From positions 1-31,932 of IMG/VR virus record IMGVR_UViG_3300007734_000573: a stretch of 31,932 nucleotides of DNA; one strand, 5' to 3'. Positions 9,983 through 31,932 of the stretch are shown here, piece by piece. Positions within the stretch are counted from its first letter, which is position 1, and each line of letters opens with the position of its first letter. Under the pieces are notes generated by a model. It ran no database searches and had not been told where the DNA came from. It saw only the letters and a list, made by a program, of their open reading frames with translations. The stretch is from a virus. A program made the translations under genes and the position numbers.

Positions 9983-10186
9983 TCACATCCCCCTTATGCG
10001 GTAGCCACGCGCTACCCTCTCGCGCTTGTCAATCTTGCCACTATCCGCAAGATCTTGAAGCAGCCTCTGGGCCGTGCCGTGCCCAATGTCCATCAGCTCG
10101 GCGATCTCACGCACGGTCGGCGCATAGCCGTGCTCCTTGACGAAGGCGCGGATCACCTCGATCAGCTCGATCTGCGCCCCTGTCAT
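9983..10186 (-). CDS. LexA-type winged helix DNA-binding protein
   Basis: A 67-aa protein that corresponds to the DNA-binding domain of LexA alone. ELIEVIRAFVKEHGYAPTVR is followed by EIAELMDIGHGTAQRLLQDL and a wing DSGKIDKRERVARGYRI. It lacks the LexA peptidase domain, so it should not self-cleave. It may compete at host SOS-like operators or regulate the phage's own promoters (inference). The ATG overlaps the upstream stop as ATGA. Confidence 0.8.
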   Translation of the reverse strand: MTGAQIELIEVIRAFVKEHGYAPTVREIAELMDIGHGTAQRLLQDLADSGKIDKRERVARGYRIRGM

Positions 10187-25437: not shown

Positions 25438-26421
25438 TTAGGAAATTGTTGCGAGGTTGTTCTTTACCACAATGGAGAAGTCCGTTGAAGCGGACGAGTC
25501 CACAATGCCGCGATAGGTGATGTTCGCCACGATGACGCCATCAACTTCCGCGATCTCGTGCGTGTCTGCCACACCGTAGAAGTCCAACTGGAACCCGTAG
25601 GTGCCCAGGCCGAGCGTTGGCCCTGTCACATCAATGCGAATCTTTCGCTCGCTCTTGAGCAGGAACTTATCAAGCTCGTTGCGGTTCGTGAAGTATCGGA
25701 CGATCTCAAGTCGCGCTTGTCGCGCAACCGGAGCCACCGTATCCACGGCTGCTGAGGTGCCATCAAGCACTTCGCGTCGGACAAGTCCGCGCGTGAGCGT
25801 AAAGGTCGCCTCTTGCACCGAGGTGTCCTGGGTTGAGCCGATCGTCGTCGCGTCAATGTAGACGGCTGCGCCTACGCCAAGCACGCTGATCTGCGTCGTA
25901 TCGGCTGGGCTTGCGCTGAACGCCGTGCCGAGCGTCACCGTGCCTGCGGCGATGGTCGTCGCCGAGAAGGTGACGGCTTCGTCCTTGACATAGGAGATGC
26001 TCAGCTCGGTGGTCGAGCAACCAGGCAACTTGTAGGTTGGGATGACGGTGCCGCCATCTTGCCAGCCCCACTCAGCCGTGAAGGTCTTCGGCGCGTTCGC
26101 CGTGCCGCTGTTTGGACTGTAAGTCCAGGTGTATGGAGCCACGGTGCCGGACGGCGTGACGCCGCCCTTGACGCTGCCCTCAAGCCAGAACGGAACTTGG
26201 CTGTAGAGGACTGGCCCTGAGATGTTCAAGCCGTTGCGCTCAACGCCAGGGTTGATCTCGTGGGTCTCAAAGAAGGTGCCACGAAGCGTCGTGGTAGCGA
26301 TGCTCGTGATCTCCTGCGATGGAGTCGCCTCGTTGATGTAGAGGACGCGAGTTGCGGAGGCAGCCGAACCAGCCGTTGATTCAAGCGCTCCAACGAGTTT
26401 GTATAGCTGATTGACTGCCAT
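25438..26421 (-). CDS. Major tail protein
   Basis: A 327-aa beta-rich protein, MAVNQLYKLVGALESTAGSA at the start. It lies immediately upstream of the chaperones in the expected major tail protein position. Segments such as LEGSVKGGVTPSGTVAPYTW and TFTAEWGWQDGGTVIPTYKL and the C-terminal LGTYGFQLDFYGVADTHEIA are compatible with tail tube proteins that carry a conserved beta barrel. It forms the tube through which DNA passes. It is longer than minimal tube proteins, so it may carry an extra surface domain. Confidence 0.82.
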   Translation of the reverse strand: MAVNQLYKLVGALESTAGSAASATRVLYINEATPSQEITSIATTTLRGTFFETHEINPGVERNGLNISGPVLYSQVPFWLEGSVKGGVTPSGTVAPYTWTYSPNSGTANAPKTFTAEWGWQDGGTVIPTYKLPGCSTTELSISYVKDEAVTFSATTIAAGTVTLGTAFSASPADTTQISVLGVGAAVYIDATTIGSTQDTSVQEATFTLTRGLVRREVLDGTSAAVDTVAPVARQARLEIVRYFTNRNELDKFLLKSERKIRIDVTGPTLGLGTYGFQLDFYGVADTHEIAEVDGVIVANITYRGIVDSSASTDFSIVVKNNLATIS

Positions 26422-26431
26422 TCGGAACTCC

Positions 26432-26938
26432 TTATGCTGCTTCTACCGAGGACAGGGCATTTGCCCGCTCGATGTATTTGCCTAGAACATCATCAGCCGC
26501 TTGCTGACCTGCTTCCTGTGCCGTGCCTGTTGACGGCGTGACGAACGGTTTGGCCTGCGCGCCAGAGTGCTCAACCAGTTGGGCATAGCCCAGCCCGATC
26601 TTCAGGAGGTTCTGCCCGCGCGGTCTGATGAGGTGGCCCTTTGTGCCGTACTCAATCAGGTGGCGGTGATTGCTGCCCTTGCCCATTGCCGCCGCGATGA
26701 CGCCAATGGTGCCAGCCTGCCTGCGAATCTTCTTCGCGTTGATGGACTTGTAGAGGTTGCCGGTCTTTCGTCCGACGCCACTCGTGATGTAGAACTGTTG
26801 AATGACGGCGCGCATTGCCTTACCAGCGGCGTCGCGCATCTCCTCAAGCAGGCTGTTCACAGGCCCTTCGTAGAACTGCGAGGCGTAGCGCTCGGTGAAC
26901 TCGGTCTCGTACTTGAGGCTGAACGATGTCTGTGCCAT
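26432..26938 (-). CDS. HK97 gp10-like head-tail/neck protein
   Basis: A 168-aa protein, MAQTSFSLKYETEFTERYAS then AMRAVIQQFYITSGVGRKTG and NLYKSINAKKIRR, with HRHLIEYGTKGHLIRPRGQ. The HxHLIEYGTK...R sequence is the signature of the gp10-like family, which completes the neck between head and tail. The ATG at 26938 overlaps the upstream stop as TAATG, which decides the start over a longer frame that runs to 27124. Confidence 0.82.
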   Translation of the reverse strand: MAQTSFSLKYETEFTERYASQFYEGPVNSLLEEMRDAAGKAMRAVIQQFYITSGVGRKTGNLYKSINAKKIRRQAGTIGVIAAAMGKGSNHRHLIEYGTKGHLIRPRGQNLLKIGLGYAQLVEHSGAQAKPFVTPSTGTAQEAGQQAADDVLGKYIERANALSSVEAA

Positions 26939-27396: not shown

Positions 27397-27999
27397 TTAG
27401 ACCGCCTGGGCTGCGACGCGGTAGGCGCGCAGCATCTGCTCCACATCTGGGTCAAGGCGCGCGAGCAGACGCATCTGGCCCACTTCAGGCGCCGATGCGA
27501 TGCCGAACGGGGTGTTGCGTCGGTTGAAGATACGCCCGCTCTGGATGATGCAGCTCATCTCAATCGGTCGTGGCACGGCGGGCCAGCCGCGTGTGCCAAC
27601 GATCTTGACCGCCTTGACGATCTCCACAGGAAAGGTGTTTGCGCCTTCGGTGAGCGCGATGACCTCGGTGAATGGTCGCCCAGTCGTGGATGCGTTGAAT
27701 GGCGCGAGCGCGCAGTCAGTGTTGATGACCCACGAGGTGCTGTAGGTGCCATTGGCATCGCCATCCGTGGTGATCGCGGAGACAGAGGCGAAGTCGTCAA
27801 TCGGCTGCACAAGGTAGTCCTGCGCCGTGTAGAAGGCGGTGCTCGCAGCGGACTGATAGAAGAAGCGCCCGCAGTAGTCGTCAATCAGTCGGCTGACCGA
27901 CTCGATCACAAGTTCCAACTCGGTGTCCGAAGTGGCGTCAATGATGCCGAGGGCCTGCTTGACTGCGCTCCCAGTGGTGTAGCCGTTCGTGATTGCCAT
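27397..27999 (-). CDS. Head-tail connector protein (gp6-like)
   Basis: A 200-aa protein, MAITNGYTTGSAVKQALGII, then DTELELVIESVSRLIDDYCG and RFFYQSAASTAFYTAQ. The helical N-terminus LVIESVSRLIDDYCGR is the signature of phage gp6-like connectors, which attach to the portal ring. The C-terminal IQSGRIFNRRNTPFGIASAP is also typical. Its start overlaps the nucleotidyltransferase stop as TGATG, so the sugar cassette is cotranslated with the neck genes. Confidence 0.82.
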   Translation of the reverse strand: MAITNGYTTGSAVKQALGIIDATSDTELELVIESVSRLIDDYCGRFFYQSAASTAFYTAQDYLVQPIDDFASVSAITTDGDANGTYSTSWVINTDCALAPFNASTTGRPFTEVIALTEGANTFPVEIVKAVKIVGTRGWPAVPRPIEMSCIIQSGRIFNRRNTPFGIASAPEVGQMRLLARLDPDVEQMLRAYRVAAQAV

Positions 28000-28622
28000 C
28001 AGGTCTCCTTGATTGGTTGGACGCGCTTGAGCGCGTCAGGGTCGCCAGCATCCTGCCAGCCGGTCACGATAAGTTCGGTGAGCGGCTGGTGAGGTGCGTA
28101 TGACCTCAGAACATCAGCCATATGCACTTCATTGGTTGAGCCGAGCTTGAGGTCATAGCAGATATCGTTGAGCAGCTCGCGGTTCGTGAAGCGGTAGATG
28201 CCGCAGCATACAAGCACTTCGGGCACGCCTCGCGTCCAGCCGCCTTCCGTGGAAGCGTCGTAGTAGTCCCAGATTCGCCACGGCGCTGTTGCCACGCCAA
28301 CCCAGTCGCCCTCCTGCGTCGGCACCTGCGGGAGCAGGGTATCGGCGAAGAGCACCGTGAGCGCACCCTCTGGAAGCGCCGTAGAGGCACTCAGGAGCGC
28401 CCCAGACGGGCCGTCTGCCTCATCGTGGGGAATCACCCCAGCCAGCCAGGGAGCGGCGCTGAGCACCGCTTTCTCGTCGTCTGGCCTCACCACCGCGTAG
28501 GTCGGCTGTTTGCCAGCCGCGCGCCTGTGCCACTCGTGCACCGGCAGCCCCGCCGCCTCAACGAGCAGTTTGTTCGTGCCGCCTAGCCGTGATGCCTTGC
28601 CAGCGGCGAGGATGACGATCAC
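27999..28622 (-). CDS. Nucleotidyltransferase (NTP-transferase/MobA-like fold)
   Basis: A 207-aa protein starting with a GTG, VIVILAAGKASRLGGTNKLL, the nucleotide-binding loop of the GT-A-like nucleotidyltransferase family. VVRPDDEKAV, SGALLSASTALPEGALTVLF and FADTLLP follow, with Asp in FAD as a likely metal ligand. It could activate a sugar-1-phosphate or similar for the two glycosyltransferases upstream. The frame is open to 28667, but the GTG at 28622 overlaps the previous stop as GTGA and gives the typical family N-terminus. It is not usual in a head operon. Confidence 0.8.
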   Translation of the reverse strand: MIVILAAGKASRLGGTNKLLVEAAGLPVHEWHRRAAGKQPTYAVVRPDDEKAVLSAAPWLAGVIPHDEADGPSGALLSASTALPEGALTVLFADTLLPQVPTQEGDWVGVATAPWRIWDYYDASTEGGWTRGVPEVLVCCGIYRFTNRELLNDICYDLKLGSTNEVHMADVLRSYAPHQPLTELIVTGWQDAGDPDALKRVQPIKET

Positions 28623-29146
28623 GGTTGGCTCTCGTGCTTCCATTCGCTGTTGAGATCGTAGAACCAAGTCGCCTCTTGCACGAGCGTAAACTTCGCGCCG
28701 TGGTCAAGCGCCTTGACCCAGAAGTGCCAGTCATAGCCCTTGATGAGATCAAAGCCACCCAACTCCTTGAAGAGCGCGGTGCGAACGATGGCGTTGTGGC
28801 TGACGATGCTGCCAGATCGCAGCGCGCTCGGCTCAAAGCCGACGCGGTACATCCTTGCACCGTCATCGTAGGAGTAGGCGATGTCAGAACCGTCACGCTC
28901 CGCAGCCTCAACGAGCGACGATAGGTGATTGGGATAGAGGTAGTCATCATCGTCTAGCAGCGCGATCCACTTGGTCTGCGCGGCGAAGCAGAGGTCATTC
29001 TTCATCGCGGCGCCACCACGCCTGTGGTAGTCGGTGCCGATAAGGTGCGCCTGCGGTAGCAAGGTCTGCAAGCGCACTGAGGTCACTGCTCGGTGCAACA
29101 ACTCCTCCCGCTCAGGCAGCGTTGCCGTGACAACCGTGACGCTCAT
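28619..29146 (-). CDS. Family 2-type glycosyltransferase (GT-A)
   Basis: A 175-aa protein, MSVTVVTATLPEREELLHRA and VTSVRLQTLL, the usual nucleotide-sugar binding start of family 2 enzymes. LLDDDDYLYPNHLSSL (Asp65-Asp68) is the metal-binding DxD region, and the AFKELGGFD-like TALFKELGGFDLIKGYDWHF near 123-142 is the acceptor-side pattern. It transfers sugars, possibly to the capsid. It overlaps the upstream glycosyltransferase stop as ATGA. It is shorter than typical members but has both key parts. Confidence 0.87.
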   Translation of the reverse strand: MSVTVVTATLPEREELLHRAVTSVRLQTLLPQAHLIGTDYHRRGGAAMKNDLCFAAQTKWIALLDDDDYLYPNHLSSLVEAAERDGSDIAYSYDDGARMYRVGFEPSALRSGSIVSHNAIVRTALFKELGGFDLIKGYDWHFWVKALDHGAKFTLVQEATWFYDLNSEWKHESQP

Positions 29147-30378
29147 CCGCGCTTGGCGGCTCGCCGCTGTTCGCGGTTCAGGCCGCTCGCCTTCGGAATC
29201 TCAGACTCAATCTGCTTGAGGATCGGGCGCCAGTTCTCGGCGTAGACCTTCTCGGTGCTGTAGTTAGATGCAAAGGCAACCGCCGCCTCGGACGCAGCCT
29301 TCGCCTTCTCCGTGTCTGCCTTGAGCGCGTACGACTGCTCCAGCGCATCTACAATCTCGTCCACATTCGGGGTCATCCACCAGCCGGTCTGCAACTCATC
29401 CCACTCAGGCTGACCGCCGACCTTCCAGCCGACGCCCACAAGTTCGGGCATTGCCGTCCAGTTCGTGACAATCACTCCTGGGGTTGAGCAGGCTTGGGCC
29501 TCCAGAACTGGGAGTCCGAAGCCCTCCCCTCGGCTAGGCTGCAAAAGAACATCCGAGGCCGTGTAGCACTTCGCGAGCACCGCCTGATCCAGCCCCTGCC
29601 GGTAGGCGAACTGCGGAACAGTGCGGATGCGATCCATCGGAGCATTGACCGCCTTGAGCAGCCGCTCCAACTTGACGCCGTTGGCGAGACCGAACATCTC
29701 AGTGTGGAGGTAGAGCCAGGCATCTTTGTGCCGATTGGCAAAGGTCGCCCAAGCGAGGAGAAGTTCCGGCCAGGCCTTACGAATAGGTGATAGGCCCTTG
29801 TTCGCCTGTGGGCAGATCGTTAGGTGCGCGTCAGCCGGAATACCGAGGTCGGCGCGGATGTTAGATGGCGTTGGCTTGAAGATATTTAGGTCAATGCTGT
29901 GAGGCGCGTAGAAAACCCTATCGCGGTCAACGCCAGCATCGAGCAGCTCGCGCTCGCCGAAGCGACTCATCGCGATGGCCCACTTGCCTTTGCCTCTGCG
30001 GTTGAACCACGCTTTGACCTCTTCGGGTACGACGCTGTGGTCAACGGGCGTCCACGATGCCATCGGGATCTCGTCCCATTGCTGCGACTTGTAGACCCAG
30101 ACATCGTAGAGAGAGATGCCCAGCCCTGCGCCATCCTCGGTCGTCTGGTTGATCCAGTTGCCGATCTGCGCGGGCGTGAGGTCATTGCTGTAGGCGTCCA
30201 GCCCTTGCCCCATCACGGGGATGCCAGGTCGCCACTCCATCGTGGAGCCAGCGAAGCCGTAGTTCGCCATTATCGCGACCTTGTGCCCATCGGCTGCAAG
30301 GCGCGGGACGATCTCGTTCGTCTGTGTTCCGTATCCCGTGGGCGCCCACGGCGCGTTAGATGTCCAACCGATTCTCAC
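29143..30378 (-). CDS. GT-B glycosyltransferase (family 4-type)
   Basis: A 411-aa protein of GT-B fold. The N-terminal lobe begins MRIGWTSNAPWAPTGYGTQT (with a Gly-rich loop). The C-terminal lobe has AHLTICPQANKGLSPIRKAW, ASDVLLQPSRGEGFGLPVLE and AQACSTPGVIVTN. Glu285 and Glu293 (EGFGLPVLE) form the E-x7-E nucleotide-sugar motif. It ends in NREQRRAAKR, a basic tail also found on other phage proteins. A GTG start with AGGAGG lies downstream of the UUCG hairpin after the capsid gene. Confidence 0.9.
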   Translation of the reverse strand: MRIGWTSNAPWAPTGYGTQTNEIVPRLAADGHKVAIMANYGFAGSTMEWRPGIPVMGQGLDAYSNDLTPAQIGNWINQTTEDGAGLGISLYDVWVYKSQQWDEIPMASWTPVDHSVVPEEVKAWFNRRGKGKWAIAMSRFGERELLDAGVDRDRVFYAPHSIDLNIFKPTPSNIRADLGIPADAHLTICPQANKGLSPIRKAWPELLLAWATFANRHKDAWLYLHTEMFGLANGVKLERLLKAVNAPMDRIRTVPQFAYRQGLDQAVLAKCYTASDVLLQPSRGEGFGLPVLEAQACSTPGVIVTNWTAMPELVGVGWKVGGQPEWDELQTGWWMTPNVDEIVDALEQSYALKADTEKAKAASEAAVAFASNYSTEKVYAENWRPILKQIESEIPKASGLNREQRRAAKRG

Positions 30379-30403: not shown

Positions 30404-30433
30404 CCTCCCGCCGAGCCGAAGCCCGACGGGAGG
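30404..30433 (-). terminator. 13-bp UUCG hairpin after the major capsid gene
   Basis: On the minus strand CCTCCCGTCGGGC pairs with GCTCGGCGGGAGG around TTCG, with two G-U pairs and the highly stable C(UUCG)G loop. It lies 23 nt after the capsid stop. A smaller GGTTT/AAACC repeat precedes it. There is no T-run, so it may terminate part of the transcripts or stabilise the capsid message. Confidence 0.65.
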
Positions 30434-30455: not shown

Positions 30456-31631
30456 TTAGGTGGTCGCCGAGACGAGCACCTTGACTGCGTTCAGGTCTGG
30501 GATGTTGCCGTCAACACCGTACAGAGTGCGAAGCGCAGTCTGATTGGTATTGAACAGGTAATCCTGGCTTGAAGCGACTTCAATCGGGAGTTCTCGTACA
30601 TAGTACGAAGGCTCGTGAATGATCGCAACTGACTTGGACGCCGAAGCGACCGCAGCCATATGCACATTCTCCTTGAGGCGGTATCCCATAAGGGTGTCAG
30701 GCTGCCCAGCGGCAAGAGCCGGCTGGAAGACGAACTGCCCGTTGAGATCCTGCAACTTGCGGAGTTTGCTCACTGCCGTCGTGCTCGCGTGCCAAACAGT
30801 GTTGGTGTTGCGGTACGAAGGATTGAGCGCGTACAGAACGGTCGTCAGGTCAAGCGCATCAAAGAAGGTCGCCGTGACGGTGCCTCCCTTTACTGCCGTG
30901 CTCAAGCCCGTTGCCGCAGAGACGAAGCCCTGTGGAAGAACCGTGCCGGTGCCGAGGGTCATTGCTGAACCAGCGACGAAGGCGATCTGTGCCCCCGCCT
31001 GGCGACCAACTGTCCCAAGAATGTCAAAGCCCGCGTCACGAACAAGTTCGTTTGACAAAAGCGTCAACGAAGCGATCTTGTTTGCGTAGAGGGTGATTGA
31101 CGAGATCGTTGGGTCGGCTGGTGAAATGCTTGAACCCTCTGTTACGAATCCAGCGGTCTGGTTCGCCGTCACGCGTGGCAGAGTGATCTGCTCGCCCGTG
31201 GTCGTGCGAAGTTTCGTCGCCCCGTCGTAGATCGGGTTGCCCTCAGTCAACGCGACGACAACGAAGTCGGCGAATGTGACTGGGACGGTTGCGGTTGCTG
31301 ATGCGAGGGCGCGGATCTCAAACTGAGCGCGGCGCTTCTCACCCGTGGCGATTGCCCGAAGGACATCGCCGTCGTTGTCAGCCTTGACTGCATTCTCAAC
31401 CTTGAGTGCGCGCTCTGCGAGTGCGCCGATCTTCTCACTGCGCTCTTCAGCGGCAGCAACCTGATCCATCTTGGCCTTGCGTGCGGTCATTGAATCGTTC
31501 AGGCTCGTCCATCGAGCCTCTTCCTCTGCGGAAAGTTCGCGCTTCGCGTCAGCTGCGCCGGCGAGGAGAGACTTAGCCTCTTCCCAGTCGTTGCGGTACT
31601 GCTCGTGAAGCGTCTTGGTGATGTCAGACAT
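30456..31631 (-). CDS. Major capsid protein, HK97 fold
   Basis: A 391-aa protein. The N-terminal about 105 residues are charged and helical (KTLHEQYRNDWEEAKSLLAG, RARWTSLNDS-like helices), the delta/scaffold domain that the prohead protease removes. The shell part has TVPVTFADFVVVALTEGNPI, LPRVTANQTAGFVTEGSSIS, ITLYANKIASLTLLSNELVR and the C-terminal RLKENVHMAAVASASKSVAI. These fit HK97-type capsids (E-loop, P-domain and A-domain parts). AAGGAG lies 8 nt before the ATG. It follows the protease once the circle is closed. Confidence 0.95.
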   Translation of the reverse strand: MSDITKTLHEQYRNDWEEAKSLLAGAADAKRELSAEEEARWTSLNDSMTARKAKMDQVAAAEERSEKIGALAERALKVENAVKADNDGDVLRAIATGEKRRAQFEIRALASATATVPVTFADFVVVALTEGNPIYDGATKLRTTTGEQITLPRVTANQTAGFVTEGSSISPADPTISSITLYANKIASLTLLSNELVRDAGFDILGTVGRQAGAQIAFVAGSAMTLGTGTVLPQGFVSAATGLSTAVKGGTVTATFFDALDLTTVLYALNPSYRNTNTVWHASTTAVSKLRKLQDLNGQFVFQPALAAGQPDTLMGYRLKENVHMAAVASASKSVAIIHEPSYYVRELPIEVASSQDYLFNTNQTALRTLYGVDGNIPDLNAVKVLVSATT

Positions 31632-31651: not shown

Positions 31652-31932
31652 TCTGGTTTGGGGTTGATTGCGTCATCGGTGGTGCGTCCAGCGGTGGTGC
31701 CGTGAGGCCCTTGTGCTGCGCCCTAGCGAATCTGCTGTTCCAGCTTGGCAAGTGCCAACTGGCGCTCACGAACGGAGAGAGGTACGAGCCGATCATCGGC
31801 TGCCTCTGGCTCCGTTGTAGTCTCAGGTTCAGGCCGCAGATCAGGACTGACCTTGCGGATTGCGAGATCGAGCGTTGCGGCTGAATCCGCATCGGGTGCT
31901 CCCGCGAGGAGTGAGTCAAAGGCACGCATCAG
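31652..31932. repeat. Right copy of 281-bp terminal direct repeat
   Basis: This copy repeats bases 1-281 exactly. Its last 210 bases encode the same end of the prohead protease, and the first 71 are the protease-capsid intergenic space. It confirms that the contig closes on itself. Confidence 0.95.
31723..31932 (-). CDS. Prohead protease, C-terminal part (duplicate of the first gene, truncated by the window end)
   Basis: The frame encodes the last 68 to 70 residues of the prohead protease, LMRAFDSLLAGAPDADSAAT to the stop, the same bases as 72-281. It is not a separate gene. The full gene is the 620-aa entry at the left end. Confidence 0.9.
   Translation of the reverse strand: MMRAFDSLLAGAPDADSAATLDLAIRKVSPDLRPEPETTTEPEAADDRLVPLSVRERQLALAKLEQQIR

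Follow-up and report, generated by a model that had tools for sequence, protein, structure and literature searches.

Glycosyltransferase genes of environmental phages are usually ascribed to DNA protection or to a change of the host surface. The virus record IMGVR_UViG_3300007734_000573 raises the question of what such genes do when two of them, together with a nucleotidyltransferase gene, lie between the genes for the major capsid protein and the head-tail connector. The window analysed here is the entire record, a stretch of 31,932 nt whose terminal 281 bases are identical at both ends, so that the genome is probably complete and circularly permuted, with a length of 31,651 bp. IMG/VR labels the record linear despite these ends. 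No integrase or lysogeny genes were found in the 31,651-bp genome, some very small open reading frames lying outside the scan, and no base-modifying gene (hydroxymethylase, thymidylate-synthase-like or other) was present among the frames scanned.

Three enzymes between capsid and connector

The genes on the minus strand follow the order terminase, portal, protease, capsid, GT-B glycosyltransferase, GT-A glycosyltransferase, nucleotidyltransferase (NT), connector and tail genes. The block studied opens with an HK97-type major capsid protein (30456..31631, minus strand; PF05065, E-value 6e-44; TIGR01554, 1.4e-57), followed on the same strand by a GT-B fold, GT4-type glycosyltransferase of 411 aa with a GTG start (29143..30378; PF00534, 1.6e-10; phrog_2170, 1.7e-39), a small GT-A fold, GT2-type glycosyltransferase of 175 aa (28619..29146; PF00535, 4e-9), a sugar-1-phosphate-type nucleotidyltransferase of 207 aa, also with a GTG start (27999..28622; PF12804, 7e-12), and a gp6-like head-tail connector (27397..27999; phrog_442, 3e-15); a tail tube protein is encoded at 25438..26421, again on the minus strand (PF18906, 1.4e-9). 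The Pfam and PHROG profiles bear out the three enzyme classes of the original prediction, and the overlaps it described are all present: ATGA between GT-B and GT-A, GTGA between GT-A and NT, and TGATG between NT and connector. At 61.5% GC, a frame of 411 codons would stay open by chance with a probability of about 4e-6, one of 175 codons with about 5e-3 and one of 207 codons with about 2e-3. The predicted placement between capsid and connector genes stands as well; the coupling stops short of the capsid gene, which a 77-nt gap containing a hairpin separates from GT-B.

GT-B shows the sequence and fold features of family GT4, namely a PF00534 match above cut-off, an E-x7-E motif (EGFGLPVLE, residues 285-293) in which both glutamates are invariant in the alignment, and two Rossmann domains in an AF2 model (pLDDT 88.6) whose Foldseek neighbours are MshA, GlgM, the glycosyltransferase of chlorovirus NY2A, and PimA. 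Its C-terminal tail is basic (NREQRRAAKRG), and an NRxQRR tail recurs in 60 of 181 GT-Bs; a C-terminal tag common to GT-B and structural proteins was considered and rejected, NRxQRR occurring on no credible frame besides the GT-Bs. GT-A likewise has the marks of family GT2: its PF00535 match is above cut-off and a DxD-type motif lies in the N-terminal, nucleotide-binding half (DDDD at 65-68, with D66-D68 invariant), accompanied by GYDW near 137. Its profile matches are GT2 enzymes in the PDB, headed by the PglI-type GalNAc5-diNAcBac-PP-undecaprenol glucosyltransferase, and by these sequence features it is classified as a putative minimal GT2 enzyme.

NT carries the signature LAAGKASRLGG..K at residues 5-18, together with D94 and W189-x-D191, and G8, R12, K18, D94 and D191, which include both metal-binding aspartates, are invariant in 17 homologues. 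The AF2 model (pLDDT 88), with a single Rossmann-like domain, finds RmlA, MurU and the inositol-1-phosphate cytidylyltransferase IPCT by Foldseek (E-values of 1e-10 to 1e-11), the last two being nearly equal to NT in size, and signature and predicted fold together place NT in the sugar-1-phosphate nucleotidyltransferase type. A MobA-like identity was rejected: the best PDB matches by sequence are to MobA (E-value 0.006), but the protein scores 18.7 bits against the TIGR02665 cut-off of 151.85, and the fold and the C-terminal W-x-D favour the sugar-1-phosphate enzymes. No match to NT was found in 50,697 phage records, and a search of 84,980 species genomes gave a single match, partial and weak. 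Under a strict threshold, none of 395 Actinomycetes genomes yielded a close capsid, a result that says nothing about the host. The catalytic motifs of all three cassette enzymes are intact and dN/dS within allele classes is 0.04-0.14 (0.04-0.09 for GT-B), which indicates purifying selection and hence that all three genes are kept as working enzymes.

A core glycosyltransferase and a variable cargo

The cassette is common to relatives, the same frames in the same order recurring in 28 further distinct loci, so that a lone insertion in a single phage can be rejected. The position of GT-B was examined with a capsid-only scan, which does not select for GT-B and counted distinct loci whose downstream sequence reached 1.2 kb or more. 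Among the matches listed, 82 of the 84 loci have a GT-B that follows the capsid gene at a distance of 7-139 bp; because the capsid queries were taken from GT-B-bearing phages and the loci share ancestry, this proportion describes the lineage, not phages at large. The two exceptions among these matches, L376 and L377, are mutually near-identical relatives without the cassette, with an empty site in which the connector follows the capsid gene after about 317 bp; no GT4 match was found in L376 across 32.8 kb. In the reciprocal, GT-B-selected scan, which listed matches in 110 distinct loci with a capsid gene on the contig, the distance between the two genes is below 200 bp in 103 of the loci, 0.5-1.05 kb in six, and in one GT-B is elsewhere. 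GT-B is thus a core gene and a near-constant neighbour of the capsid gene in this lineage, a position that may in part reflect common descent. For this reason "inserted", the word originally chosen for the whole triple, does not suit GT-B and applies at most to GT-A and NT; the picture is not of a one-off triple insertion but of a lineage core gene followed by one of several cargos.

None of nine annotated, distantly related HK97-type phages has such an enzyme annotated between the capsid and the neck or tail genes, which makes the site unusual outside this lineage and agrees with the expectation that HK97-like phages normally lack these enzymes here. Phages whose capsid is different (L055-L058) also carry the trio, as a GTB-GTA-NT block located behind the connector, and L016 and L029 carry an 84% identical GT-B among tail-fibre and lysis-side genes, so that the capsid is not necessarily the acceptor.

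Within 42 distinct close loci, a set chosen to contain GT-B, GT-A and NT are both present in 29 and both absent in 13, and seven GT-B-only records tested (contigs of 23-37 kb) contain no GT2 or NTP_transf_3 match contig-wide. The gap from GT-B to the connector is 0-3.3 kb among the matches listed, and in relatives it holds nothing, GT-A plus NT, or other glycan genes. Pfam searches of 95 cargo frames gave 16 GT2, eight epimerase/GDP-mannose dehydratase, seven Methyltransf_24, five GT17, five MptE-like and three CTP_transf_like matches, and a few tail-fibre and collagen-like genes are also among them. By its domain annotation, the cargo appears to resemble a glycan-assembly island, of which GT-A plus NT is one among several alternative contents. 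A 90.8-kb phage record contains the GT-A-NT pair without GT-B; there the pair adjoins one gene for GDP-mannose 4,6-dehydratase (above cut-off) and another that is GDP-fucose synthase-like. This and the intact trio of L055-L058 indicate that GT-A and NT probably function as a unit. Most likely NT feeds GT-A, and the suggestion that NT could make the activated donor gains support from its predicted sugar-1-phosphate nucleotidyltransferase fold and from its co-occurrence with GT-A.

Exchange of glycosyltransferase alleles

Alleles were compared across 21 close haplotypes with capsids 88-100% identical. Two classes can be told apart in GT-B (83-100% identity within, 71-76% between) and two in GT-A (79-100% and 63-71%), and the haplotypes seen are I-A, I-B and II-B, never II-A. 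Phages L012 and L039 have capsids that are 99% and GT-As that are 96% identical with GT-Bs at 76%, and L009 and L015 have 99% identical capsids, GT-Bs and NTs each at 97%, and GT-As at 67%; nucleotide identity falls and recovers at the gene borders or close by. Distances correlate for capsid and connector (0.70), NT and connector (0.73) and capsid and NT (0.59), as against 0.10 for capsid and GT-B, -0.05 for capsid and GT-A, and 0.00 for GT-A and NT. We conclude that GT-B and GT-A have been swapped, while capsid, NT and connector were inherited together. The tail-completion (neck) gene n1 is likewise allelic and decoupled from the capsid, so that the glycosyltransferases are not alone in exchanging alleles, and no covariation of glycosyltransferase class with capsid or n1 was found. 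The C-terminal half of GT-A enzymes is the acceptor side, and 36 of the 43 class-diagnostic GT-A positions fall there, a bias that would fit a constant donor, supplied by the same NT, and an altered first sugar.

A conserved hairpin behind the capsid gene

Between the capsid stop and the GT-B start lies a GC-rich hairpin (30404..30433, minus strand) with a 13-bp stem and a 4-nt loop, at z -4.8 against shuffles. Across 13 variants, with pairs counted on centred hairpins, 169 of 169 cells are paired and double changes occur at 13 of 13 positions. These patterns suggest a terminator-like or processing element, here lacking a T tract, that probably sets the dosage of the glycosyltransferases below that of the capsid. 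A regulator specific to the cassette was rejected, a like hairpin being present also behind the capsid gene of L377, which has no such enzymes.

Comparison with known systems

The closest functional parallel is in mycobacteriophages. Virion glycosylation is reported for Che8, Corndog and Myrna (PMC12363180, PMC12619734, both citing Freeman et al. 2023); these papers describe Che8 gp110 and Corndog gp38 as essential for the modification (PMC12363180) and place the glycans at the C-termini of capsid and tail tube (PMC12619734). As in our phage, the glycosyltransferases of Che8 are phage-encoded, and they reportedly modify capsid and tail tube proteins. The genes for gp108, gp109 and gp110 also share 4-bp overlaps, but they sit at the end of the genome that is remote from the capsid gene. 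Che8 gp110 has no significant similarity to any of the three cassette genes, the match to the cassette GT-A profile is confined to the GT-A half of gp108 (E-value 2e-23), and, unlike the cassette, gp108-gp110 include neither a GT4 enzyme nor a nucleotidyltransferase.

The gene arrangement has closer counterparts elsewhere. Pontimonas phage phiPsal1 (MG835450), the nearest named relative (capsid 37% and GT-B 36% identical), has the order capsid, group 1 glycosyltransferase, GT2 and neck gene, with an opposite-strand methyltransferase in place of the nucleotidyltransferase; the phage was lost after sequencing, and its paper does not discuss the function of the glycosyltransferases (PMC6106888). 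Microcystis phage Mae-JY09 (PP395641) has a 38% identical GT-B that separates the capsid gene from the head-tail adaptor gene and precedes an epimerase gene, but its capsid is not matched by that of our phage and the record contains no NTP_transf_3 match. Chloroviruses encode their own capsid glycosylation. The glycosyltransferase of one of them, NY2A (PDB 3oy2), is among the folds closest to GT-B (TM 0.72-0.75), although this is a eukaryotic virus with a different capsid and the enzymes are 16% identical. PHROG family 2170 (glycosyltransferase) is filed as moron, whereas its member here is a near-constant capsid neighbour, and no description of a capsid linkage of such an enzyme was found in the literature searched, which left out most subscription journals. 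The cassette is thus known in kind, as phage virion glycosylation, if our reading is right, and new in anatomy.

What the enzymes may modify

We propose, at a probability of roughly 0.6, that the phage encodes the glycosylation of its own virion. The head operon, cassette included, would be transcribed late, with the hairpin presumably lowering the dosage of the glycosyltransferases. GT-B would place a first sugar, drawn from a host nucleotide-sugar, on the capsid protein or the assembled head; NT would activate a sugar-1-phosphate or alditol phosphate, and GT-A would add this second sugar onto the first to yield a short glycan. Acceptor, sugar, order of action and benefit are the elements of this proposal that we infer. 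The reading is favoured by a complete-looking genome without an integrase, by the capsid-adjacent site (82 of 84 loci listed) and by a cargo of glycan chemistry.

By position, the major capsid protein is the most likely acceptor, and the tail tube protein, which ends in ...NLATIS, is a second candidate. A serine or threonine within the last two residues, as would suit a Che8-like acceptor site, is found in 142 of 173 capsids and in four of nine controls without adjacent glycosyltransferases; it is common but not specific, and was set aside as an acceptor mark. The L377 capsid retains its C-terminal serine, and since this phage keeps the hairpin too, no capsid feature yet separates phages with the enzymes from those without.

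The original prediction had left open whether capsid or tail or the host surface is glycosylated, and of these the virion is the better supported. Late modification of a teichoic acid or other wall glycan, which would block superinfection or keep released phage from sticking to debris and let alleles track host serotypes, seems to us unlikely. It would resemble the O-antigen conversion that temperate phages carry out, but no integrase was found here; wall and polymer synthases are among the GT-A profile matches, yet no lipid-carrier enzyme was seen and the structural neighbours of GT-B are mostly soluble or peripheral enzymes. Host variation would fit allele swapping too, and for freshwater actinophage glycosyltransferases either DNA protection or a role in superinfection exclusion has been proposed (PMC10202952), but the site here stays beside the capsid gene and not with lysis or early genes. 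Less probable still is a division of labour in which GT-B alone acts on the virion and GT-A plus NT form a separate moron for the host surface or a small molecule at a permissive site: the 13 loci with GT-B and no pair, and the larger phage with the pair and no GT-B, would be explained, whereas the ATGA overlap that joins GT-B to GT-A, the trio kept as a block at another place in L055-L058 and the missing combination of GT-B class II with GT-A class A speak against it. Glycosylation of phage DNA for escape from nucleases, the most frequent role known among phage glycosyltransferases and one proposed for freshwater actinophages E7 and F5 (PMC10202952), is very improbable here, with no base-modifying gene among the scanned frames, the genes in the head-neck block away from replication genes, and a GT-B similar to GT4 enzymes whose substrates are small molecules, lipids and glycans. 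Capsid linkage and the lack of integrase and base-modifying genes thus weigh against the host-surface and DNA alternatives.

Under virion glycosylation, related phages that swap glycosyltransferase alleles would display different glycans on particles with nearly the same capsid, and this variation would probably alter how the particles appear to grazers, to lectins of host or competitors, or to receptors. More tentatively, we suggest that throughout a large phage lineage a capsid glycosyltransferase may be as much a core component as the connector, the stretch behind it being a hot spot for the exchange of glycan genes and glycosyltransferase alleles. The close linkage to the capsid gene, the glycan-type cargo and the exchange of alleles suggest that the particle itself is modified. 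Should this hold, a large phage lineage would glycosylate its virions as a standing trait, with serotype-like variation of its own, in which capsid "serotypes" switch through allele swaps on a nearly constant capsid.

Hairpin behind the capsid gene

Behind the capsid gene, at the edge of the glycosyltransferase cassette, lies a hairpin (window 30404–30433, minus strand) in which the structure is kept and the sequence is not: among 13 variants, 169 of 169 cells are paired, and double changes are found at all 13 of 13 positions. Stems of at least 10 bp occur behind 103 of 171 capsid genes, as against 6 of 171 control stretches.

Settings of the cassette genes

The loci L376 and L377, from related phage records, present a natural empty site, in which the order 3' of the capsid gene is a small conserved ORF followed by the connector gene; the GT4 gene is absent from both contigs. 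Homologues of the window GT-B, with 83–84% identity to it, are found in two further phage loci (L016, 1385–2614; L029, 1–969) amid tail-fibre, Gly-rich and lysis-side genes, on a contig too short to show or exclude a capsid-side copy, and the genes around them are homologous to window 16–20 kb. The window's GT-B ends in the C-terminal tail NREQRRAAKRG (29143–29180, minus strand); tails of the NRxQRR type are carried by 60 of 181 distinct GT-Bs and by none of the other credible ORFs of the loci. A GT-A–NT pair is also encoded in a 90.8-kb phage record (L246, 3317–6612), where it adjoins genes for GDP-mannose 4,6-dehydratase and for a protein resembling GDP-fucose synthase.

Other genes and genome form

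The tail-completion/neck gene (26432–26935, minus strand) falls into three deep allele classes (53–69% between classes), which are uncoupled from the capsid. Also on the minus strand are a stand-alone LexA-type winged-helix domain of 67 aa (9983–10186; PF01726, 1.1e-11) and the prohead protease (72–1934), whose long N-terminal extension includes DUF5824; compared with the protein of Pontimonas phage phiPsal1, its first 111 aa are 62% identical and the protease part 36%. The contig ends carry an exact 281-bp repeat (1–281 = 31652–31932). The record, classed as linear in IMG/VR, probably represents a circular assembly that is complete at 31,651 bp.
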